This document shows positions 4,745 to 15,015 of a stretch of 32,258 nt of DNA, in pieces. The notes under the pieces were generated by a model, which was not told where the DNA came from, did not search any database, and saw only the letters and a program-made list of their open reading frames with translations. A program made the position numbers and the translations under genes. Every line of letters starts with the position of its first letter. Within the stretch, counting starts at the first letter, position 1. The stretch is from Terriglobia bacterium (GTDB lineage Bacteria > Acidobacteriota > Terriglobia > 20CM-2-55-15). The stretch lies in assembly GCA_036496425.1 (NCBI GenBank), contig DASXLG010000113.1, positions 1 through 32,258 on the forward strand. The letters run 5' to 3'.

Positions 4745-6526
4745 ATGCGCCAGATTGAGCAGCCGCGAATCCTCGATGAACGCTACAATCCCAGCATCAC
4801 CGACAATTCGATGTACATCCTCCGCTTCAGATATCTGCTCAAGAGAGAGGATGGAACCCTCGAAACACCTGTCGAAATGTTCCGGCGTGTGGCATGGAAT
4901 ATCGCGGAGGCCGAGCGCATCTTCGCCCCGGACATAAGTCCTGAGGCCGTACTGGCATACGCCGAATCGTTTTTCACCATAATGACCGATTTCCGGTTTT
5001 TGCCTAACGCTCCGGCTCTCCTTGGCGCGGGCGGGCCGCTACAGCAGCTCGCGGCCTGTTATGTCCTTCCCATTGAAGATTCGATCGAATCCATTTTCGA
5101 AACGCTGCGAATGGCTGCAATCGTTCACAGCAGAGGCAGCGGGACGGGATTTAACCTCTCCGCTTTGAGGCCACGCGGGACACCGATCGCGACGGGCGGC
5201 GTTTCGACGGGACCGGTCTCGTTTATGCGGATCTTCGACATGGAAACGGAGATCATCAAGCAAGGGGGAACGGGCTGGGGCGCAAACATGGGGATGCTTC
5301 GCTGCGACCATCCCGACATTCAGGAATTCGTCACCGCGAAATCAACCGGCGCCGGGCTGCAGAATTTCAACATCTCCGTGGGAGTGACCGACGAATTCAT
5401 GAGGCTGAGCCGTACGGGCGGTACGTTTGCCTTAGTGGACCCGCAGTCGGGACGCAAAGCGGGCACGGTGAATCCGCGGGAGTTGCTGGACCGGATTGCG
5501 CTCGAGGCATGGAAAACCGGCGACCCCGGACTGCTGTTCCTGGATCGGATCGAACGGGACAATCCGACTCCTCAGCTCGGCCGCATCGAGGTGACAAACC
5601 CATGTGGCGAGGCCCCGCTTCTACCGTACGAAGGATGCTGGCTCGGCGGAATCAATGTTGCCGCTCATCTCGACTCGAGGAAGCGCGCGGTGGACTGGGA
5701 ATCGCTCCGTCAAACATGTTCGATTGCGTGCCGGATGATGGACAACGCTTTGGAGGTGAGCAGTTATCCGCTTCCCCAACTGAAGGAAGCGACACAGCGG
5801 ACCAGAAAGCTGGGAATCGGTGTTATGGGCTTTGCGGACATGCTCGTTCAGATGAACATTCCGTACGGTTCTCCGGAAAGCGAAAGTCTGGCACGGGATT
5901 TGATGTCCTTCATACAGGAGTCTCTCGAGGAGACTTCCGTGATGCTGGGCCGGGAACGCGGCGTCTTCCCGGCCTATCCGGACAGCAGGTTGGCGGCGGA
6001 GGGAGCAAAAGGACGCCGGAACGCGACGGTTACAGCGAACGCTCCCAACTCCACCATTGCTGCGATAGCCGGATGTTCGTCGGGCATCGAACCTATATTT
6101 TCCATCGCTTATTCCAAACAACTGCGCAACGGAGACACGCTGAATGAGATTCATCCGGAATTCTTACGCATGGCGCGGAGCCTGGGATTCTACTCCGAGC
6201 GGCTGGTCGATCGAGTACTGAACGAGGGTTCCATTCAGAGCATCTCCGAAGTGCCTCAGGCGGTGAAGGACGTGTTCCTGACAGCGCACGACATTTCGGC
6301 CGGCGGCCACATCAGGATCCAAAGCGCTTTTCAGGACCACATCGAGTTAGCCGTAGCGAAGACAATCAACCTGGCGAATCATGCAAGGCCGGAAGACGTA
6401 AAGAGTGCGTTCCTGTTGGCCGGTGAATCCGGGTGCAAGGGGATCACGTGTTTTCGCGACGGATGCCGTGATCGCGCATTTCTGGATCCCGGTCATAAGA
6501 CTGCGAGGTCGGGCTTGTCTTGCTGA
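4745..6526 (+). CDS. nrdJ: Adenosylcobalamin-dependent ribonucleotide reductase (class II)
   Basis: 593-aa catalytic subunit that reduces ribonucleotides to deoxyribonucleotides using an adenosylcobalamin-derived thiyl radical, without oxygen or a beta subunit. The active-site triad reads N285-P-C287-G-E289. C105 (QLAACYVLP) and C298 (YEGCWLGGINV) are the redox pair, the latter 11 residues past the radical cysteine as in class II enzymes. Other family motifs are SRGSGTGFNLSALRP, GGTGWGANMGMLRCDHPDI and ATVTANAPNSTIAAIAGCSSGIEP. There is no N-terminal ATP cone. The C-terminus is short (GCKGITCFRDGC...SGLSC) and lacks the usual CxxC pair, ending in a single Cys593. AGGAG lies upstream of the ATG. 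Its stop codon abuts the stop of the convergent Nudix gene. Confidence 0.93.
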   Translation: MRQIEQPRILDERYNPSITDNSMYILRFRYLLKREDGTLETPVEMFRRVAWNIAEAERIFAPDISPEAVLAYAESFFTIMTDFRFLPNAPALLGAGGPLQQLAACYVLPIEDSIESIFETLRMAAIVHSRGSGTGFNLSALRPRGTPIATGGVSTGPVSFMRIFDMETEIIKQGGTGWGANMGMLRCDHPDIQEFVTAKSTGAGLQNFNISVGVTDEFMRLSRTGGTFALVDPQSGRKAGTVNPRELLDRIALEAWKTGDPGLLFLDRIERDNPTPQLGRIEVTNPCGEAPLLPYEGCWLGGINVAAHLDSRKRAVDWESLRQTCSIACRMMDNALEVSSYPLPQLKEATQRTRKLGIGVMGFADMLVQMNIPYGSPESESLARDLMSFIQESLEETSVMLGRERGVFPAYPDSRLAAEGAKGRRNATVTANAPNSTIAAIAGCSSGIEPIFSIAYSKQLRNGDTLNEIHPEFLRMARSLGFYSERLVDRVLNEGSIQSISEVPQAVKDVFLTAHDISAGGHIRIQSAFQDHIELAVAKTINLANHARPEDVKSAFLLAGESGCKGITCFRDGCRDRAFLDPGHKTARSGLSC

Positions 6527-6994
6527 TCAGCTCAGGTTCTGCCACTGGAATTTCCAGAACCCGCGCTCCCCGTTCACTTGAAAATCCCTGGCCGTGTGGA
6601 CTGCCTTCTGCACCAGCTCTTTTTGAAAAGGGCACTGGATGTCGATCGAATGCGCCTGGTCGGCTTTAACCCACTGAAACGTGTATTCGCTCATATCACT
6701 TGCCGGTGAAATGACGCCTTCCTCATATTTCAAGAGGCAAAAAACGCTCAGGATGTTGCCCAGCCGTGGATATGCAAAAATGTGCGCATCCAGAACGTCG
6801 ATGAGCCTGTAGCGAATCGGGCCCAGTTCTTCCTGAATTTCCCTCGCAATGCATTCCGGAATCGTTTCATTGGCCTCAAGCTGTCCACCCATGACGCGCC
6901 AGGCCGTACCATCGCGTGAGAAAAACAGGAATCTGTCCTCATCGTCGACGATGAAACACGATACGGCTACTGGAAAAGCTGGTTCAGGGTTCAT
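6527..6994 (-). CDS. Nudix hydrolase, last gene of the radical SAM operon
   Basis: 155-aa protein with a complete Nudix box, GQLEANETIPECIAREIQEELG, fitting Gx5Ex7REUxEExG. It should hydrolyse a nucleoside diphosphate linked to another group; the substrate cannot be read from sequence. I chose ATG 6994 (MNPEPAFPVAVSCF). The open frame extends to 7243 but would overlap the SPASM-coding end of the upstream radical SAM gene, and that extension has no Nudix-like features. The start lies 19 nt after the stop of the radical SAM gene at 7014, on the same strand, so it is probably cotranscribed. Its stop directly abuts the nrdJ stop in the convergent direction. Confidence 0.85.
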   Translation of the reverse strand: MNPEPAFPVAVSCFIVDDEDRFLFFSRDGTAWRVMGGQLEANETIPECIAREIQEELGPIRYRLIDVLDAHIFAYPRLGNILSVFCLLKYEEGVISPASDMSEYTFQWVKADQAHSIDIQCPFQKELVQKAVHTARDFQVNGERGFWKFQWQNLS

Positions 6995-7013
6995 GAAATA
7001 ACCAGGTCGATCT

Positions 7014-8237
7014 CTAGTGTGGGCGGCCGATCCAGGTGCAAAGGTAGTCCATATGGACCAGCCTTTGTTCCGTGCACAGCTCAGGCTTCTGAGGGAAGGT
7101 TTCGCGCGGCCGAATATCTTTGGGGCAATAGGGATCCCGGGCAAGCATGGTTTTCTTTCCCACAGTGTGAAGATGGTGCAGGTAAGAGCGCGCAGCGCAT
7201 CCGCCACCGCAGCGATCCAGTAAAGGGCAGTCTGCGCATCCATCGACCGCCTGTGGGTTCTGATTACGTTGGCGGAAGACGCGGAATTGCGGACTCGTAA
7301 TGATCTCCGACAAGTCGCGCCGAATCAGATCGAACTCGGACTTGTAGTCGTGTAAATACACGCACGGGCTCACGTGAATGCTGCCGGACGGCGTAATCGA
7401 GTGAATCCGGAAAGAGGTGCGGCCGCATGGACACCGTTTTGCATTGGCATAACTCGTTACGGCTGCAATCGGCGGTTCTCCCAGATCGACGGGCCGGCAA
7501 AGCTCGAGCAGGCGTGCAAAACCTGCGTAATACATTCCCGCGGGCAGGGCGCTGTCCATGTGCTCCGGTTGCACGGGCTTGACCGGGTTGATACGAACGT
7601 TTCCGTCGTACTTCTTCGCCAGAGCAACGAGCGCTTCGATGTGGCGCAGGTCAAAATTCCATTTCATGCCACACATGATGAGGCTATGCGGAAGATTGTG
7701 GCGCTGGCAGATCTCCAGCGCTTCAATGGCCTCGTGGTAAATAGGGGCGCCGCGATTCGTGTTGTGTTCCTCTTCAAACGGCGAATCGAACGAGACATCG
7801 AGGTCGTTCAGCAAGTCGAATGCGCGGCGATGGAAGCGGTACAAATACAGCAGCGTGATACCGCTCGTCGTCAAACCAACGATGATGCCGGCATCCACGA
7901 GCTTCTCGATGATGTACGGCAACAGCGTGTTTTTCGGGTTTGCCCCGTTCGTAAACAGGGGCTCGTTGCCTCCGAGATTCACGGTTTCGACGCCGTTGAT
8001 CCGCAACTGATCTACGATTCGATCGACCATCGCCACCGACATGTCCTTGCCCTTCTCGCGGGCATTCATGCTGTAGCAATGTTTGCAGCGGTACGGGCAG
8101 TCGTTTCCGAGGGTCCACCCGATATTCCGGATCGTCGGCTCAGCTTCCGGCAACGAGCCAAACTCGCCGGTCGGTCCGGTGTTGCCCTGGTAGTGTTCAA
8201 GCGGGTCGTATTCGACTGTGCGTTGCGGTCTGCTCAT
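7014..8237 (-). CDS. Radical SAM/SPASM protein 3 of the cluster
   Basis: 407-aa protein. The radical SAM cluster motif is C47-P-Y-R-C51-K-H-C54 in WTLGNDCPYRCKHCYS, followed by NLGGNEPLFTNG at the SAM-binding GGE position, here with Asn (GGNEP). The C-terminal SPASM domain has CPCG..., then CADCPLLDRCGGGC (Cx2Cx5Cx3C) and a final DPYC, enough ligands for two auxiliary Fe-S clusters. SPASM enzymes usually modify peptides or proteins through radical chemistry. The gene begins 4 nt after the stop of the preceding radical SAM gene (8242), so translation is probably coupled. The substrate is unknown. Confidence 0.9.
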   Translation of the reverse strand: MSRPQRTVEYDPLEHYQGNTGPTGEFGSLPEAEPTIRNIGWTLGNDCPYRCKHCYSMNAREKGKDMSVAMVDRIVDQLRINGVETVNLGGNEPLFTNGANPKNTLLPYIIEKLVDAGIIVGLTTSGITLLYLYRFHRRAFDLLNDLDVSFDSPFEEEHNTNRGAPIYHEAIEALEICQRHNLPHSLIMCGMKWNFDLRHIEALVALAKKYDGNVRINPVKPVQPEHMDSALPAGMYYAGFARLLELCRPVDLGEPPIAAVTSYANAKRCPCGRTSFRIHSITPSGSIHVSPCVYLHDYKSEFDLIRRDLSEIITSPQFRVFRQRNQNPQAVDGCADCPLLDRCGGGCAARSYLHHLHTVGKKTMLARDPYCPKDIRPRETFPQKPELCTEQRLVHMDYLCTWIGRPH

Positions 8238-8241
8238 GGCT

Positions 8242-9369
8242 TCAGCTTCCGATCGTGGCGAGCGTTTTCACACGCGGCAGCCGCTCGATTCGACTCTCGG
8301 ACTCAACGACCGAAATATCGGCATCGTGCATCCTGTCATGGACCCTCTCCGGATACTTTTCCGCGTACGCCTGACATAACGGATAGGGTGAGAACCAATT
8401 GTCGGCATGCGACCAGGCATAAGCCCGGCAGGACCCCCTGCAGCTTTCCCAGTAGACGCATTTGCCGCAAACACCCTGGAAATCCCGCTGTGTGACCTCT
8501 CGCATACCCTGGAAGTACTCACTATTGCGCCAGATCTCCGAGAGCGATTGCTGGTGCAGGTTTCCGGCCGTAAATCGCGTATGCGTGAACGTGATCGGAG
8601 CGCATGTGGTCACATCCCCATTGGGCATGACCTCGCAGCGGCGAATTCCCCAGCCGCAGGTTTCGCCGGCATGGCCGGTAATCAACGGAGGAAGTTCAAT
8701 TTCGAGATTCAGACCGAGAGAGTTCAGATAATCGTGAACCCGCAGCACCGTATCGAGATCGAAATTCTCCAGGGACACGCCGTTACCAAGCACGCTGTGG
8801 TCGAAGAAAATGCGCTGCGGAATACCATATTCGCGCGCTAACTCCAGCAACTCATCCAGGTGATCGATGTTGATGCCCGTCAGGGAACTCTGGACACGTA
8901 CGTCCACTCCATTCCGGTGCAGATGAATGACGAGATCGCGGATGGCCTGATGTTCCTCGCTCGAGATGCCTCGTTGGGCCGCCAGGTCATAACTGACGTA
9001 CAGATTGATCAAATCGCGATGATCGATCATAAGCCGTACGATTTCATCGTCGTGGCGCCGCAGGAGGACCGCGTTGGTTTCGAGTTTGGTTTTTATTCCG
9101 CTCTTCACACAGTGCATCAGCATGTCGGGAAGGCCTCGATGCAATGTGGGCTCGCCCCCGGTGAACGTGACCTTCTGCAAGCCGAGAGGCACGGCTTCAT
9201 CGATGGCACGGCATACCAGACCGGGGTCCAGAACGTCGGATCGCACGAACCAGTCTGAGGCATAGCAGTGCGCACAATTGAGATTACATTTTGCGACGAG
9301 CCGGATATGAAGGTCCGTCATCGCAGGACAGGCTTGCGGCGAGGTTGGCAGCGGCGGCTCCGAATACAT
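8242..9369 (-). CDS. Radical SAM/SPASM protein 2 of the cluster
   Basis: About 375 aa. With the start used here, the radical SAM motif is C28-N-L-N-C32-A-H-C35 (AKCNLNCAHCYAS), followed by VTFTGGEPTLHRG for SAM binding. The SPASM region shows CGWGIRRCEVMPNGDVTTC (with GX4C) and CGKCVYWESCRGSC (Cx2Cx5Cx3C), then a final PLC. The layout resembles PqqE/NirJ-type maturases, but identity cannot be fixed. ATG 9369 is one base after the TAA of the upstream gene and has GGTGA at a suitable distance. GTG 9393 is an in-frame alternative that would overlap the upstream gene by 23 nt. Middle gene of the four-gene run. Confidence 0.9.
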   Translation of the reverse strand: MYSEPPLPTSPQACPAMTDLHIRLVAKCNLNCAHCYASDWFVRSDVLDPGLVCRAIDEAVPLGLQKVTFTGGEPTLHRGLPDMLMHCVKSGIKTKLETNAVLLRRHDDEIVRLMIDHRDLINLYVSYDLAAQRGISSEEHQAIRDLVIHLHRNGVDVRVQSSLTGINIDHLDELLELAREYGIPQRIFFDHSVLGNGVSLENFDLDTVLRVHDYLNSLGLNLEIELPPLITGHAGETCGWGIRRCEVMPNGDVTTCAPITFTHTRFTAGNLHQQSLSEIWRNSEYFQGMREVTQRDFQGVCGKCVYWESCRGSCRAYAWSHADNWFSPYPLCQAYAEKYPERVHDRMHDADISVVESESRIERLPRVKTLATIGS

Positions 9370-9370
9370 G

Positions 9371-10843
9371 TTATTCACCGTGCCTCGAAACACCTTTTAG
9401 CGGAAGCGATTCATTGTTCGGATCGATGTTGCCGAACAATGCCTCGCGGTCCGTCGCGGTAGGAAACAATACGGTGGGCGTGTCCGGACCAGACGTTCGC
9501 TGGCAGACCTTAAACAGGTCTGCCAGCATCCATGCCAACAGGAGTCGAGTCTGATCGCAGTTTTCTTCGTCGAGTGCGTCAAGATTTCCGTGGAGCTGGA
9601 AAGCATTAAACGGACAACCGCCGCCGCATACTCCGAGTGCGGGACAATTCTGGCAATCCATCTTCAGGACCGGAGCGCGGCGGTTCCACGATTCGTCATC
9701 ATTGCCTGCGATGTCGAGTTGCACGAGATCCCGCGCGGCTGCCCCTTTGGAATACGCGATGTATTCGCAATGACCTTCCATGCCCCACGGGGTCGCAGTC
9801 ACCTTTCCGCCGCACGCCATGCAGTCTTTCAGTTTCGGCCGCATCGACACGAACGGCCTCATTCGGCGCGCAACCTGATCGACGTAGACTCCTTTCTCAC
9901 GACAGGCTATGTATGTCTCGACCAGTGCGCTGATCACGCGATCTGCTTCAGCCTGGAACGGGTTCTTCTGACGCTTCAAGGGATGGAACACTCCGGCGAT
10001 GCCTATCTCGTCGGGCTTCAACTCGTCAATCAGCCATCGAACAGACTGCGCCAGTGAGTCGACATTGTGCCGTCCGACCATGATGGAGATGCCCATTCTG
10101 CAGCCGGCGTCCTGAAGTTTGCGATATCCCCTGATGGTCCGCTGTGTCGACGGGTTGTAGTTAAGGTCCACGCGCCCGAGATCGTTGACTTCAGCCGGCC
10201 CATCCATGCTGACGATGGCGTACACGTTATAGCGAGCGCAAGTGGCTGCGATCTCGTCGGTGATCAGGGATCCGTTCGTGAAGGTCGTGATGTTGATGTC
10301 CTGATCGCCTCGTTCGTCGCGAATATACTTCAGGACATCCTGAATGATGTCCGCGGCCATAAAGGGCTCGCCGCCAAAGAAGACGAAGTCCCGGCTGCGC
10401 GGTGACGCAGCTGCCGACATCCGGTAGAAGGCGTTTACCAGTTCGCGAGCCTGGCCGGTCGTCATCTTCTGATAGTTCGTCGTCTCGGGGAACTCCTGGA
10501 TAAACTCGCAGTACTTGCAGCGATAATTGCACGCCATCGCCGGAATGAAATAGACCGTAGTAATGCCTTCTGAAACGGCCCTGGCCTGCAGGCCATTGAT
10601 CAACTCCGTTGCCCCGTGCCAGCCGGACCGCAGATCCAGGCCGAGTTCGTGCAGTCTTTCGGCTTCCGCCGGCGTCACGCAGTCATAGCTGCAGATGTCC
10701 ATGGCATCTTCTGGAACATCCTGGATAAATGCTGCATTCAGATTGAGAGAGTTGTACAGGGCGACAACCGATCCGCTCCTGTAGGCATGAACGTAACCGT
10801 TGCTCGTGGCGTGCTTGAATGCAAGAGACTGGACTGCTGCCAT
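9371..10843 (-). CDS. Radical SAM/SPASM protein 1 of the cluster (peptide-maturase-like)
   Basis: 490-aa protein, first gene of the operon. Residues 1-95 form an N-terminal domain (GYVHAYRSGSVVALYNSLN) of the kind found ahead of the core in radical SAM peptide maturases. The core motif is C105-N-Y-R-C109-K-Y-C112, followed by DFVFFGGEPFMA. The SPASM domain shows CMACGGKVTATPWGMEGHC, then CQNCPALGVCGGGC (Cx2Cx5Cx3C) and a last ENC. A strong Shine-Dalgarno (AGGAG, 8 nt before the ATG) and a consensus-like promoter at 10929-10958 precede it. A peptide or protein substrate is inferred from the domain layout. Confidence 0.9.
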   Translation of the reverse strand: MAAVQSLAFKHATSNGYVHAYRSGSVVALYNSLNLNAAFIQDVPEDAMDICSYDCVTPAEAERLHELGLDLRSGWHGATELINGLQARAVSEGITTVYFIPAMACNYRCKYCEFIQEFPETTNYQKMTTGQARELVNAFYRMSAAASPRSRDFVFFGGEPFMAADIIQDVLKYIRDERGDQDINITTFTNGSLITDEIAATCARYNVYAIVSMDGPAEVNDLGRVDLNYNPSTQRTIRGYRKLQDAGCRMGISIMVGRHNVDSLAQSVRWLIDELKPDEIGIAGVFHPLKRQKNPFQAEADRVISALVETYIACREKGVYVDQVARRMRPFVSMRPKLKDCMACGGKVTATPWGMEGHCEYIAYSKGAAARDLVQLDIAGNDDESWNRRAPVLKMDCQNCPALGVCGGGCPFNAFQLHGNLDALDEENCDQTRLLLAWMLADLFKVCQRTSGPDTPTVLFPTATDREALFGNIDPNNESLPLKGVSRHGE

Positions 10844-10928
10844 GACATTAACTCCTGCCGGCTCGGCTGAGTTGCGCTCGAGCCGCGATGTTCTTGCTCG
10901 AAAATAAGTGAGTTTGTGATTAGAGAGT

Positions 10929-10958
10929 TTTATACATGCTGTTTCAGGCGCGTGTCAA
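10929..10958 (-). promoter_or_regulatory. Sigma70-like promoter of the radical SAM operon
   Basis: On the minus strand TTGACA (10958-10953) is followed after 18 bases by TATAAA (10934-10929). That is a perfect -35 and a 5/6 -10. It lies between the nitroreductase stop (10971) and the radical SAM start (10843), so the operon can be transcribed independently of the nitroreductase. The leader would be about 80 nt. Confidence 0.7.
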
Positions 10959-10970
10959 CGTTTCACTTTT

Positions 10971-11612
10971 TCAGTCTTTCGAATACGCCGCACCCCAGCG
11001 GTCCAGATACACAACATCTTTGAGGGGCCGGCGTTGTACGGGGCCGAAACTGCCCATCGGATAGCCGATCGGAATGATCGCGTATGAGCGCGCGCCGGGA
11101 GGAATTTCCAATATCGCATCGACTTCGGCGCTGTACAGCGTGTGACGGGTCGTCAATACGGCTCCCAATCCAAGCGCGCGGGCCGCTATGAGGATGTTCT
11201 GAACCGCTGGATATATGGATGCTCCGGACCAGATCGTTTCCGGATGATCCAGGCGGTCGAGACACGCCACAATCCAGACAGGCGCCTCGTGGAAGTGGTC
11301 CGTGAGATATTCAACCGCGCTGAACTGCCGATCGTATTGCTGTCGCGTGACGCCGGCGGGTAGAGGGTCTTCCTTGTACTGCGGCGCGATATATTCATCC
11401 AGCGCTTTTTTGTAGTAGTGCTGCACACGCTGTTTGATCGATCGGTCTTTGACGATCACAAAACGCCACTTCTGGCGATTGCCGGCGTTTGGCGCAGCGA
11501 TAGCGGCGCGGAGTATCTTATGGATCAGGTCGTCGGAAATCGCGTCCGGTTTCAAACGGCGCATCGCCCGCATCGTCCCCATGACGTTTAAAACATCACT
11601 CTCAATGTCCAT
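10971..11612 (-). CDS. Nitroreductase-family flavoprotein
   Basis: 213-aa FMN-dependent oxidoreductase of the nitroreductase superfamily. RAMRRLKPDAISDDLIHKIL followed by AAIAAPNAGNRQKWRFVIVKD is the N-terminal FMN-binding region; SIYPAVQNILIAARALGLGAVLTTRH and IPIGYPMGSFGPVQRRPL are C-terminal family motifs. The substrate is unknown. ATG 11612 is preceded by GAGAGG; TTG 11624 in the same frame is less likely. It lies upstream of the radical SAM operon on the same strand and is divergent from the 65-aa gene, so it may supply a dehydrogenation or reduction step in the same pathway. That is inference. Confidence 0.87.
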   Translation of the reverse strand: MDIESDVLNVMGTMRAMRRLKPDAISDDLIHKILRAAIAAPNAGNRQKWRFVIVKDRSIKQRVQHYYKKALDEYIAPQYKEDPLPAGVTRQQYDRQFSAVEYLTDHFHEAPVWIVACLDRLDHPETIWSGASIYPAVQNILIAARALGLGAVLTTRHTLYSAEVDAILEIPPGARSYAIIPIGYPMGSFGPVQRRPLKDVVYLDRWGAAYSKD

Positions 11613-11645
11613 CGGTCCTCTCAAACCTGGGAAACAGCCTTTGTT

Positions 11646-11675
11646 TGACAGTCTCTAATCTTGAGGTGTAAAAAG
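11646..11675 (+). promoter_or_regulatory. Possible sigma70 promoter for the 65-aa gene
   Basis: A perfect TTGACA (11646-11651) is followed after 18 bases by TAAAAA (11670-11675, 4/6 match), about 30 nt upstream of the ATG at 11705. The -10 element is weak, so the call is tentative. Confidence 0.35.
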
Positions 11676-11704
11676 ACAATATATTTCACTTTACAGGAGT
11701 GCTT

Positions 11705-11902
11705 ATGGCAAACGTGTATAGGACAGCCGATGAGATGATCGCTGCGGTGTCTAAAGAAACGGGCGTGAAACCCGAGGATGTCCGTAACGTCATCCGGGGG
11801 ACCTTCGAGAGCACGAAAGCCTACATCCTGCGCGAGGCCCTGGAAATCGAAGCACAGCAGGCACGGCTGACCGAAAAGATCATCGGCAGCATCCAGCTCT
11901 AA
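11705..11902 (+). CDS. 65-aa small protein with an HU-like N-terminal helix pair; possible cluster substrate or partner
   Basis: Short helical protein starting MANVYRTADEMIAAVSKE and ending LTEKIIGSIQL, with no cysteine or tryptophan. The segment from TADEMIAAVSKETG to VIRGTFES lines up by eye with the first two helices of HU/IHF proteins, but the DNA-binding beta arms are missing, so it is not a standard HU. ATG 11705 has AGGAG five nt upstream. It lies in the divergent gap of the radical SAM cluster, directly ahead of the adenylate-forming enzyme in the same reading frame, separated by one TAA. It could be a RiPP-like precursor, a carrier or scaffold, or a small regulator; the sequence does not decide. 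Confidence 0.7.
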   Translation: MANVYRTADEMIAAVSKETGVKPEDVRNVIRGTFESTKAYILREALEIEAQQARLTEKIIGSIQL

Positions 11903-11998
11903 AGAGATCGGGAGGCTTCCATCCTCAGTTTCGGTTCCATAGAGCGCGATGCCTCTAACCTTTCGGACATTCATCGCGCCTTCGGACTTCATACGCTG

Positions 11999-13222
11999 TT
12001 GGATCGCGTCCCGGGAGCCCTGGCTGAATATCAAAGCCGGCGCCTCGCTTCGTTCCTGATTCAGGTTCCCGCTAAGAGTCCGCTCACAGAACGTCGTATG
12101 GAATTCGGCAGCATTCCCCTGCTGGAAAAATCGGAACTGCAGCAGAGGAGCCTCCATTTCATCTCCTCGGGCGCCGACCCGGAAGCTCACTTCAGAGTGC
12201 AGACGACAGGATCGACGGGTGTCCCTCTCGAGATCTGGTTCGATCGCCGTTATTTCGTCAGCTTCTACGCGTACTTCCTGTACTTTTTGCATCGCCATAA
12301 ACTACGTCCGCGACCGTTTACTGTCAGCTTGATGAGCCTGTCTGTGAGTCCGAAGGCATCTTATGACCAGGATAACTACTGGTTTATTCAGCCGGCTCTC
12401 AACTTCAGCTTCTTCCAGCGCGTCAATCTGCGATCTGGCGCCTGGACTTCGCCTGCTGCCGTGGTGGAATTTATCGCCTCGAAAGATCCCATGACGATCC
12501 GGGCCTTCCCCAGCACCCTGGAGGTTTTCGCGGACTACGTTGAAGAATATCCATCATCCCGAGCAATCCGTCCGCCAACCATAATCAGCGATGGGGAGAC
12601 GCTATTGCCTGCAGTTCGTGAGAGATTGGAACGTGTTTTTCAGGCGGCGGTCGTTGACGAATATGGACTGAGTGAAGCGGGCGGCGCCGTCGCGTTGGAA
12701 TGTCGCGAGCGTTGCGGGTTCCACGTCAACGTGCTGGATTATTATGTCGAAATTGTCGATGCCGATGGCAGGCCTGTGCCGGATGGGATTGAAGGCGAGG
12801 TTGCGATTACAAACCTGTATCATTGCCTTGTTCCCATCGTTCGCTACAGCACAGGCGACTATGCAACGATGACATCCGAACCCTGCCGCTGCGGGGCACT
12901 GTCTCCAAGGATAACGAAGCTGAGCGGACGCCAGCTTAGCCGTTTCAAACTCTCGAATGGCGAGAGCTATAGCCCTTTCGAGATGTACCGCGAGTATCTG
13001 TTGAGCCTTCCAGTCCGCAGATTCCAGATGGTGCAGGAGAACATGGAGACATTTACGCTGTCTTTCATCGGCGACCCTGCCGTGATCGAATCCCCATTGA
13101 TTCAGGGCCTTCGTTCAAAAGTACGTCTGCTGCATTCCGATGCAGCAGTTCTGCGGCTTCAGCGCGTCCAGGATCTGCCGGCCGGACGGAAATTCCAGGT
13201 TTTTGTCACGCTTCCGGATTGA
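11999..13222 (+). CDS. PaaK/CapK-like adenylate-forming enzyme
   Basis: About 407 aa from TTG 11999. It has VQTTGSTGVPLEIW (phosphate-binding loop), DEYGLSEAGG and VRYSTGDYA, the core motifs of the phenylacetate-CoA ligase/CapK branch of the ANL superfamily, followed by CRCGALSPRITKLSGR. Such enzymes activate a carboxylate as acyl-AMP and pass it to CoA, a carrier or another nucleophile; the substrate is not readable. The TTG has no Shine-Dalgarno, whereas GGGAGG at 11910-11915 lies after the upstream stop and the frame is open from 11903 with plausible protein sequence (ERDASNLSDIHRAFGLHTLL). The true start may therefore be a non-ATG codon near 11921. Probably cotranscribed with the 65-aa gene. 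Confidence 0.85.
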   Translation: MDRVPGALAEYQSRRLASFLIQVPAKSPLTERRMEFGSIPLLEKSELQQRSLHFISSGADPEAHFRVQTTGSTGVPLEIWFDRRYFVSFYAYFLYFLHRHKLRPRPFTVSLMSLSVSPKASYDQDNYWFIQPALNFSFFQRVNLRSGAWTSPAAVVEFIASKDPMTIRAFPSTLEVFADYVEEYPSSRAIRPPTIISDGETLLPAVRERLERVFQAAVVDEYGLSEAGGAVALECRERCGFHVNVLDYYVEIVDADGRPVPDGIEGEVAITNLYHCLVPIVRYSTGDYATMTSEPCRCGALSPRITKLSGRQLSRFKLSNGESYSPFEMYREYLLSLPVRRFQMVQENMETFTLSFIGDPAVIESPLIQGLRSKVRLLHSDAAVLRLQRVQDLPAGRKFQVFVTLPD

Positions 13223-13259
13223 TCGAATTAAGCTCGCGCCAATTTGCGTCAATTTGTTT

Positions 13260-14345
13260 TCAATCTGTATCGGCATCGAATGCGTTCAGCGACTCGACGA
13301 TGTAGTCCAGGTGGTCACGGGACAATCCAGGATGCACCGGTACGGTTGTAATGGTCCTCAGTAGCCGGTCCGCCCTTTGGCATGACCGTTCCAGATTCCG
13401 CAAGATAGGATACCGGTAGACTGGTTGGACGTTGTACCTCAAGACATCGGACGGTATTTCTTTGCGGCCCATATAGTCCAGCAGACGGCGGTTATCTTTT
13501 CGAACTTTGAGGATGAGATGGTAGTAATTCGGAATACCGCCTTCAACCACGGGCAGGGGAAACAAGTTCGGATTTTGCAGCGATTCACAGATGAACCGGG
13601 CATTTCGTGTTCTTTGGGCGAGGTTCTCCGCCAGCTTTCCCAGCCGGTGCAATCCGACGGCGGCAAGAACGCTGCCGAGCTTGAAATTCACGCCGAAGTC
13701 TTCTCCGTTCAACCAGCCGAAACGGCTATAACTGACCGCTTTCTCGAAATAGTCCTCGCGCGGCGTCAGCAGGAAACCGCCTTCACCGGTCGAGAGAACC
13801 TTAATGTTATGCGTGCTGAAACAGGCGATATCACAATATTCGGAAAGGTGTTTGCCTTCGAAAAGCGATCCGTGAGCGTGGGCCAGATCCAACACGAGAG
13901 GAATTTGCCGGTTGCGTGCAAAGTTCTGAAGCTGGCGCAGGGGCGTTGGGTATCCCCACATCGGGACTCCGATAATCGCCTTTGTCTTGGGCCCGATTTG
14001 GCCATCAGCATCGTCTAAATCCAGGCCGAAATTGTTTTCCTGTATGTCGCACAACCGGATCCGGGCCCCCGTCATTTGTATCGGAAACACCGTACACATC
14101 GGACACGTCGCCGGCAGAAGCACTTCATCGCCTTCTGAGATCCCCAGAGTTTTCAACGCGACGGTCAGTGCGGCCGCGCCCGATGACAGCCCAACCGCGA
14201 ACGGCGAATGGAAGCAGGTTCGGAGCGCCATCTCATACTCGGTAACCAGCGAGCCTTTTCCTGAAAGGTCGCCGCTGGCCAGCGCGCGTTGAAGCACCAG
14301 GAGTTCTCCGTCTTCGGCTGGATAATAGATATTCGGGATGTGCAT
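13260..14345 (-). CDS. DegT/DnrJ/EryC1/StrS-family PLP aminotransferase
   Basis: 361-aa PLP-dependent enzyme of the sugar-aminotransferase family. It shows the N-terminal GDLSGKGSLVTEYE, FAVGLSSGAAALTVALKTLGISEGDEVLLPA, the VLDLAHAHGS aspartate region, and K182 in CFSTHNIKVLSTGEGGFL as the Schiff-base lysine. The family mainly transfers amino groups to keto sugars, and some members act on other ketones. ATG 14345 (MHIPNIYYPAED) was preferred over the upstream frame to 14465, which would overlap the pentapeptide gene and adds a low-quality N-terminus; there is no clear Shine-Dalgarno. It converges on the adenylate-forming gene with a 37-bp gap and may belong to the same pathway. Confidence 0.87.
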   Translation of the reverse strand: MHIPNIYYPAEDGELLVLQRALASGDLSGKGSLVTEYEMALRTCFHSPFAVGLSSGAAALTVALKTLGISEGDEVLLPATCPMCTVFPIQMTGARIRLCDIQENNFGLDLDDADGQIGPKTKAIIGVPMWGYPTPLRQLQNFARNRQIPLVLDLAHAHGSLFEGKHLSEYCDIACFSTHNIKVLSTGEGGFLLTPREDYFEKAVSYSRFGWLNGEDFGVNFKLGSVLAAVGLHRLGKLAENLAQRTRNARFICESLQNPNLFPLPVVEGGIPNYYHLILKVRKDNRRLLDYMGRKEIPSDVLRYNVQPVYRYPILRNLERSCQRADRLLRTITTVPVHPGLSRDHLDYIVESLNAFDADTD

Positions 14346-14418: not shown

Positions 14419-15015
14419 CTAATGCCGAAGGTCGCGGAGGTGGGCGATGACGCTTTCCGGAACACCCGAGCCTTTAAGGAAGGAATCAGGAATCTCGCCC
14501 TGGGACAGGCAGAAAGTGTCCAGGCCTATAGTGGACTGGTCGGCATGGTTGACCTCCTCAAGGCCGACGACCCTCCGCAGATCAACATTCGCGAAGATGG
14601 TCCGGCCGGCCTCGGCGTTCCGCAAATCTGCGCCTGCCAGGTTCGCTCCGTAGAGGTTGGCGCCACGAAGCCGCGCGCCACGAAGATTTGCCTCGCGCAG
14701 GTCGGCTGACGCCAGATGCGTTCCTCCCAGATCCGCCTGACTCAGATTCGCATTCCTCAGATTCGCGTTGCCCAGGTGAGCGCGGAACAGTCTGGCTCCG
14801 CTCAAATTTGCGCCGATCAATTGAATCCGATCCAGAAACGAACCATAAAGGTGAGCCTCAGCCATGTCGGCGCCGGCAAGATTTGCTTCGCGCAGGTCGA
14901 TTCCGACAAGCACGGCGCCCCGCAGATCCACGGTTATTCCGGGGCTTTGGCTTATCCACTCATTCCATGCCACGGCGCCCTGTTGCAGGATACTCAGGAT
15001 CTTCTGGTCAGCCAT
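14419..15015 (-). CDS. Pentapeptide-repeat protein
   Basis: 198-aa protein made mostly of A(D/N)LxX-type repeats between about residues 30 and 150 (DLREANLAGADMAEAHLYG, ANLRNANLSQADLGG, ADLREANLRGARLRGANLYG), predicted to fold as a right-handed quadrilateral beta-helix. The N-terminus ILSILQQGAVAWNEW and the C-terminus IPDSFLKGSGVPESVIAHL match the caps seen in many bacterial pentapeptide proteins. No enzymatic domain is attached; roles in protein binding or DNA mimicry are known for some members but are not shown here. AGGAGG lies 6 nt before the ATG and overlaps the stop of the coiled-coil gene 10 nt upstream, indicating one operon. Confidence 0.92.
   Translation of the reverse strand: MADQKILSILQQGAVAWNEWISQSPGITVDLRGAVLVGIDLREANLAGADMAEAHLYGSFLDRIQLIGANLSGARLFRAHLGNANLRNANLSQADLGGTHLASADLREANLRGARLRGANLYGANLAGADLRNAEAGRTIFANVDLRRVVGLEEVNHADQSTIGLDTFCLSQGEIPDSFLKGSGVPESVIAHLRDLRH

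Follow-up and report, generated by a model that had tools for sequence, protein, structure and literature searches.

A gene cluster with three radical SAM/SPASM enzymes in a Terriglobia genome and the conserved, portable SPASM family of one of them

Results

The stretch of DNA analysed here, referred to as the window, comprises positions 1-32,258 of contig DASXLG010000113.1 of a Terriglobia bacterium from the phylum Acidobacteriota (assembly GCA_036496425.1; contig C113 of genome G000, which comprises 6.16 Mb in 407 contigs). Between positions 6527 and 14345, it holds three genes for radical S-adenosylmethionine (SAM) enzymes of the SPASM type (S1, S2 and S3), together with genes for a Nudix hydrolase, a nitroreductase, a 65-aa protein (P65), an adenylate-forming ligase and a DegT aminotransferase (Table 1). 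S1 was found to belong to a SPASM family that shows strong conservation and is portable across phyla, and it is accompanied by P65 and the ligase in a second, distant genome as well. An unusual natural product is the probable output of the cluster, which, judging from sequence comparisons, is best read as horizontally acquired and foreign to the host lineage.

The S1 family and its spread

Relatives of S1 occur on plasmids of Phaeobacter inhibens, Streptomyces clavuligerus and an Enterococcus at 54-67% identity, and a fragment is carried by a Lactiplantibacillus plasmid. When an alignment of the plasmid records was used to search about 85,000 species, 53 S1 loci were found, the hosts being Actinomycetota, Alphaproteobacteria, Nitrospirota, Paenibacillus, Clostridia, Mollicutes, candidate-phyla bacteria (CPR) and one metagenome-assembled genome (MAG) of Woesearchaeota, with an identity of 45-75% from Actinomycetota to candidate-phyla bacteria. 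Three features, all of them found in the window S1, were used to define the family: full-length identity of 45% or more, 13 invariant cysteines and a C-terminal LVHMDYLCTWIG-type tail. These cysteines (positions 47, 51, 54, 247, 269, 271, 292, 334, 337, 343, 347, 371 and 400) are invariant in 41 S1 sequences, to which the near-invariant tail LVHMDYLCTWIG is also common. In the S1 tree, the window sequence belongs to a well-supported group of 11 with sequences from Actinomycetota, Alphaproteobacteria and Nitrospirota, and such disagreement with the species tree fits horizontal transfer. The AlphaFold model of S1 is confident (pLDDT 91), and this predicted structure aligns with SuiB, anSME, CteB, ChlB, TigE and PqqE at Z scores of 21-25, with BlsE and viperin at 20-21, with BtrN at 14.3 over 227 residues, and with AbmM (8wm2) at 13.3, far under the SPASM enzymes.

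Regarding relatives of the cluster genes closer to the host, S1, S3 and P65 were not matched in any of 60 relatives, which included five of the same genus, and among 297 genomes of the phylum only its own matched S3. No near orthologue of the ligase was found in the 60 relatives either, where proteins at 25-29% identity were present in two genomes only. Viral contigs gave no match for S3 or the ligase and a single relative of S1, and no S1 was found in phage records. The contig with this relative, filed as viral in IMG/VR, carries S1, a split vitamin B12 (B12) radical SAM gene, nucleotidyltransferase-like genes, an MFS transporter and a small pyrophosphatase. In the literature searched, no paper apparently describes the S1 family.

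A second locus with both halves of the cluster

The first-pass annotation had proposed, from proximity, that the plus-strand and minus-strand genes of the window function together, and its reading of the cluster would have been refuted by homologues that never co-occur. In an Alphaproteobacteria MAG, presumably from a lake as its name indicates, about 8 kb (locus L035) contain S1 (59% identical) and two further SPASM genes, a B12-type radical SAM gene, a P65 homologue of 95 aa (E 3e-10), a ligase orthologue (291 bits, 41% identity to the window ligase) and, following the ligase, a Nudix gene that is not a detectable orthologue of the window Nudix. S1, P65 and the ligase thus co-occur side by side in L035 and, therefore, the two halves belong together, beyond proximity.

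P65 is modelled by AlphaFold as a helix at residues 7-18 and a long helix at residues 22-63, and it contains no cysteine, tryptophan, Gly-Gly (GG) or core resembling that of the L035 homologue. The first ~43 residues are common to both proteins, after which P65 ends in its helix and the homologue continues into the tail LSEGELNQAAGG-LNPQPLPPG..., having the look of a double-glycine leader followed by a core. Searches for P65 in 296 further genomes of the phylum and 288 further Alphaproteobacteria, and in plasmids, PDB, Pfam, PHROGs and PADLOC, gave no convincing match; weak matches were seen in G187, G205, G352, G462 and G566. The LNPQPLPP tail was absent from the literature searched and had no convincing plasmid match. 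In fold comparisons, only HU-type helical hairpins matched P65 recurrently, without significance (E ~0.9), and the L035 homologue had a weak match to a DNA-binding-protein profile (E 0.013). Most other S1 loci lack a P65-like peptide. Models for precursors of ribosomally synthesized and post-translationally modified peptides (RiPPs) found no match, and the region holds no open reading frame (ORF) of 20-130 aa with at least five cysteines preceded by a Shine-Dalgarno sequence.

The P65 gene and the ligase share one frame and are split by a single TAA (11900-11935). Similarity to the L035 ligase extends upstream of the TTG codon at 11999 to about 11921 (ILSFGSIERD vs MLTLGSITRD), where an ATC codon is located 5 nt 3' of GGGAGG, so that by homology and Shine-Dalgarno position the ligase probably starts at this ATC, which would be either a genuine rare start codon or an assembly base error. 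The ligase matches the AMP-binding family of Pfam and is not a PaaK equivalog, since it scores 53-81 bits against phenylacetate-CoA ligase cut-offs of 646-700; its best model, NF045666, gives 129 bits, under the cut-off of 300.

Genomic neighbourhoods of S1

Another radical SAM gene lies within 5 kb of S1 in 40 of the 52 loci, several of the exceptions being cut by contig ends, and a B12-binding radical SAM gene is near S1 in 31 loci. Clustering of the neighbouring genes, followed by Pfam, produced families of small inorganic pyrophosphatases, thymidylate or deoxynucleoside kinase-like, amidohydrolase or adenosine deaminase-like, purine nucleoside phosphorylase (PNP)-like, thymidylate synthase-like, deoxyribosyltransferase-like and HPr-kinase-like proteins, histidine phosphatases, Nudix and DegT proteins. 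In addition, cluster 12, with proteins of ~565 aa, has no Pfam match and a marginal dGTPase match as its sole profile match, and the sequence pattern is possibly that of HD-type hydrolases. All of these apart from HPr-kinase-like and DegT proteins, thus including amidohydrolases, histidine phosphatases and the presumed HD-type cluster 12, were counted as nucleotide-type. At least one such family is present within 4 kb of S1 in 46 of 57 loci, while farther than 7 kb from S1 a single PNP-like gene is the sole representative of these families on the same contigs (168 distant vs 427 near genes). Because its neighbours are of nucleotide type, S1 may act on a nucleotide- or nucleoside-like molecule.

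Several loci show organization patterns of their own. In L030 (8135-16577) and similar Actinomycetota loci, S1 is accompanied by a B12 radical SAM gene and by thymidylate synthase-, deoxyribosyltransferase-, purine phosphorylase- and ThiD-like genes, and such loci in Nocardia and Streptomyces look like an undescribed nucleoside-antibiotic cluster. In two Clostridia MAGs (L041, 3894-11125; L042, 1-7483), S1 stands beside a NifH-like protein, two NifD/K-like proteins, a methyltransferase and two radical SAM genes, one of them S3-like, an arrangement that by gene content constitutes a nitrogenase-like cluster. A common arrangement of S1, a second radical SAM gene, DegT, a cluster-12 protein, a PEP-synthase-like protein and small proteins is found in Nitrospirota and Bradyrhizobium (L021, L023, L038).

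Organization of the cluster and identity of its enzymes

The gene content described in the first-pass annotation was confirmed throughout. S1, S2 and S3 are different enzymes, each with a Radical_SAM core, CX3CX2C and a C-terminal CX2CX5CX3C, the combination taken to define SPASM radical SAM enzymes; Pfam Radical_SAM matches all three, and Pfam SPASM matches S1 and S2. The gaps reported as 4 nt or smaller are 1 nt between S3 and S2 and 4 nt between S2 and S1, and the strong promoter was located upstream of S3. It was missed by an automatic sigma-70 scan because of the strict -10 rule of that scan, which demands T at position 6. With about 41 radical SAM places counted in the genome, a triplet inside 4 kb is expected ~0.015 times by a simple Poisson estimate, and this grouping is therefore more than chance. 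The flanking Nudix, nitroreductase, ligase and DegT genes were assigned to the families named before, and the small protein is all-helical in its model.

Table 1. Features of the cluster and its flanks in the window
Feature	Position	Strand	Remarks
Ribonucleotide reductase	4745-6526	+	Flank; vitamin-B12-dependent kind, as judged from sequence
Nudix hydrolase	6527-6994	-	Intact Nudix box GX5EX7REUXEEXGU; Pfam NUDIX 50.5 bits vs cut-off 21.1
S1, radical SAM/SPASM of unnamed, highly conserved, mobile family	7014-8237	-	C-terminal LVHMDYLCTWIG
S2, radical SAM/SPASM	8242-9369	-	ATG start; longer GTG start at 9393; nearest MftC/StsB-type models
S3, radical SAM/SPASM with N-terminal extension	9371-10843	-	Related to FibroRumin/PapB/TigE maturases
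Promoter of S3-S2-S1-Nudix operon	10905-10960	-	TTGACA-N18-TATAAA, TG immediately 5' of TATAAA; by eye
Nitroreductase-family flavin oxidoreductase	10971-11612	-	ATG start, TTG at 11624; Pfam 93.5 bits; membership uncertain
Promoter-like sequence 5' of P65 gene	11645-11675	+	TTGACA-N16-TGTAAAAA; by eye
P65, 65-aa all-helical protein	11705-11902	+	Predicted scaffold or leader-like peptide
PaaK-type adenylate-forming ligase	11921-13222	+	Probable start ATC 11921 after GGGAGG; alternative TTG 11999
DegT/DnrJ aminotransferase	13260-14345	-	PLP lysine in HNIKVLSTGEGG; membership uncertain, may be part of upstream unit
Pentapeptide-repeat gene	14419-15015	-	Flank

S2 is under every curated equivalog cut-off, and with the mycofactocin MftC model S1 and S2 reach 63 and 100 bits, respectively, against a cut-off of 265. 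S3, in which ~95 residues precede the radical SAM core, scores 148.6 bits with the FibroRumin maturase model TIGR04136 (cut-off 400) and matches the TigE structure 8vpo (E 9e-21); an annotated FibroRumin locus contains two precursor genes, and no adjacent Cys-rich precursor is present in the window. With prokaryotic viperin (NF038283), scores were 31-58 bits against a cut-off of 180. An anti-phage, viperin-like role was rejected, as only generic radical SAM scores were obtained.

DegT and the nitroreductase are transcription units of their own, and their membership in the cluster is unproven. The nitroreductase gives 65 bits with BluB, the DMB synthase (TIGR02476; cut-off 150), its nearest solved structure is albonoursin synthase (8uc3, E 2.4e-16), and no homologue was found at other S1 loci. 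Other DegT genes adjoin S1 in L020, L021, L023 and L038. The amino-sugar route, raised as a possibility in the first-pass annotation, is unproven, and DegT was rejected as proof of it, because the S1-linked DegT proteins are no closer to the window DegT (45-105 bits) than generic ones (105 bits). Immediately upstream of DegT lies the pentapeptide-repeat gene. Pentapeptide-repeat proteins are able to shield DNA gyrase, and a role in self-resistance is conceivable for this one. Elsewhere in the same genome, contig C259 (L088, 2923-9556) contains four radical SAM genes, mostly B12-type, in ~6.5 kb, together with glycosyltransferase and sulfotransferase-like genes, a group that looks separate from the window cluster.

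Discussion

In regard to the function of the cluster, we tentatively favour, as possible though short of probable, a horizontally acquired natural-product pathway in which the substrate of S1 is a nucleotide-like small molecule and the ligase attaches a carboxylate to a scaffold of peptide nature. According to this model, the S3-S2-S1-Nudix operon of the minus strand and the P65-ligase pair of the plus strand would be two probably co-regulated halves. S1 would start a radical reaction by abstracting a hydrogen from a small molecule resembling a nucleotide or nucleoside, and the Nudix enzyme would hydrolyse a diphosphate linkage in the same branch. The ligase would adenylate a carboxylate and couple it to or on P65, acting as scaffold or leader or possibly even as carrier, or to the product, while S2 and S3, nearer to peptide maturases, could take the peptide or conjugate through additional radical steps. 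Redox and amino groups may be provided by the nitroreductase and DegT, this being the weakest part of the model. In a bolder form, which we regard as improbable, the S1 family would represent a new, widely mobile SPASM class modifying a nucleotide or nucleoside; in the window cluster, a PaaK-type ligase would activate the product, which would be assembled on a small helical scaffold of ribosomal origin in an undescribed peptide-nucleotide hybrid pathway.

Several observations weigh against the favoured model. Neither GC nor GC3 of the cluster differs clearly from the surroundings, so composition gives no support for transfer or an island. Only one other genome, that of L035, combines S1, P65 and the ligase, its other SPASM enzymes are not orthologues of S2 and S3, and it is itself a locus without a counted nucleotide-type family within 4 kb, its Nudix gene lying slightly farther out. 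The window lacks the commonest S1 neighbours, the B12 radical SAM and the small pyrophosphatase, and no close copy of the former was found elsewhere in its genome (best 28%). The enrichment of nucleotide-type neighbours stands without a genome-wide background, the families were grouped only after being seen, and many Clostridia loci are near-duplicates. 5'-Deoxyadenosine is a by-product of radical SAM chemistry and, as a softer alternative, some of the neighbouring nucleoside enzymes may merely clear it.

The main rival is a RiPP cluster, as suggested in the first-pass annotation, in which P65 is a precursor with leader and short C-terminal core, the three SPASM enzymes act on this precursor, and tailoring falls to the ligase, nitroreductase and DegT. 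The leader-like L035 homologue, with its conserved N-terminal part and GG/proline-rich tail, the position of P65 as a divergent neighbour of a SPASM operon, the nearness of S3 to the peptide maturases FibroRumin, PapB, TigE and CteB, and the modelled S1 fold, nearest to SuiB, anSME, CteB and ChlB, all speak for it. However, the window P65 has no GG, Cys, Trp or clear core and is modelled essentially as one long helix, no RiPP precursor model matched, a Cys-rich ORF that would suit a FibroRumin-like S3 is missing from the region, and the S1 family elsewhere stands beside nucleotide and B12 radical SAM enzymes and mostly without P65-like peptides, so that the plain RiPP reading is weaker than first assumed and we consider it somewhat doubtful; the first-pass interpretation as a whole is supported in part. 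Alternatively, P65 could be structural or regulatory, resembling an HU-like helical hairpin, and the product a pure small molecule made from a nucleotide on which the ligase and DegT act. Such a role would accord with the HU-type fold matches, the DNA-binding profile of the homologue and the nucleotide-type neighbourhoods, but the matches are far from significance, and the close pairing of P65 with the ligase in two phyla suggests a direct partnership, making this explanation unlikely. It is even less probable, indeed very unlikely, that enzymes of different pathways lie together by accident. Orthologues of the nitroreductase, the Nudix and (in the strict sense) S2 are missing from the other S1 loci, and DegT is convergent to the ligase, on the side of the pentapeptide-repeat gene; yet the 1-4 nt gaps and single promoter of S3-S2-S1, the retention of S1, P65 and the ligase in L035, the joint absence from all congeners searched and the S3-like radical SAM near S1 in the two Clostridia MAGs argue for a functional unit.

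Compared with known systems, the window enzymes share the fold, CX3CX2C, the SPASM cysteine pattern and a nearby gene for a small protein with the maturases SuiB, CteB, TigE, PapB and FibroRumin (TIGR04136), S3 being a distant relative of the FibroRumin/TigE group. Unlike in these RiPP systems, all curated equivalog cut-offs are missed, no Cys-rich precursor is present, three different SPASM enzymes are combined with an adenylate-forming ligase, and S1 is set apart by a conserved tail and additional invariant cysteines. The ligase has the AMP-binding fold and motifs of DVU_1553/PaaK-like ligases but differs from them in its pairing with a 65-aa helical protein, and no acyl-carrier or CoA pathway was seen beside it.

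The nearest published radical SAM nucleoside chemistry found is that of 4'-thiothymidine (thmA-C) and albomycin (AbmM) (PMC12691670). Like such nucleoside pathways (BlsE, viperin, MoaA, AbmM, thmA-C), the S1 family has kinase-, phosphatase-, phosphorylase- and thymidylate synthase-like neighbours, and the S1 model aligns well with BlsE and viperin (Z ~20), although the similarity to AbmM, a sulfur-swapping radical SAM enzyme, is distant only (Z 13.3) and the window has no nucleoside kinase. Viperin and MoaA do not possess the full SPASM set, in contrast to S1. In butirosin biosynthesis (BtrN/BtrS), a radical SAM enzyme oxidises an alcohol and a DegT transaminase then aminates the ketone. The window likewise has radical SAM and DegT genes close together, but S1 is not close to BtrN, and DegT is generic, with an unproven link to the cluster.

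In line with the earlier statement that no named pathway is known to have this set of genes, no published match was found in the literature searched for the S1 family or for this gene combination. The kinds of enzymes are known, yet a real chance exists that the S1 family goes beyond a variant of them. Conserved, mobile and usually accompanied by a second radical enzyme, this family offers a strong lead to a radical-chemistry building block shared by many products, and in the window it is coupled to a peptide/ligase module.

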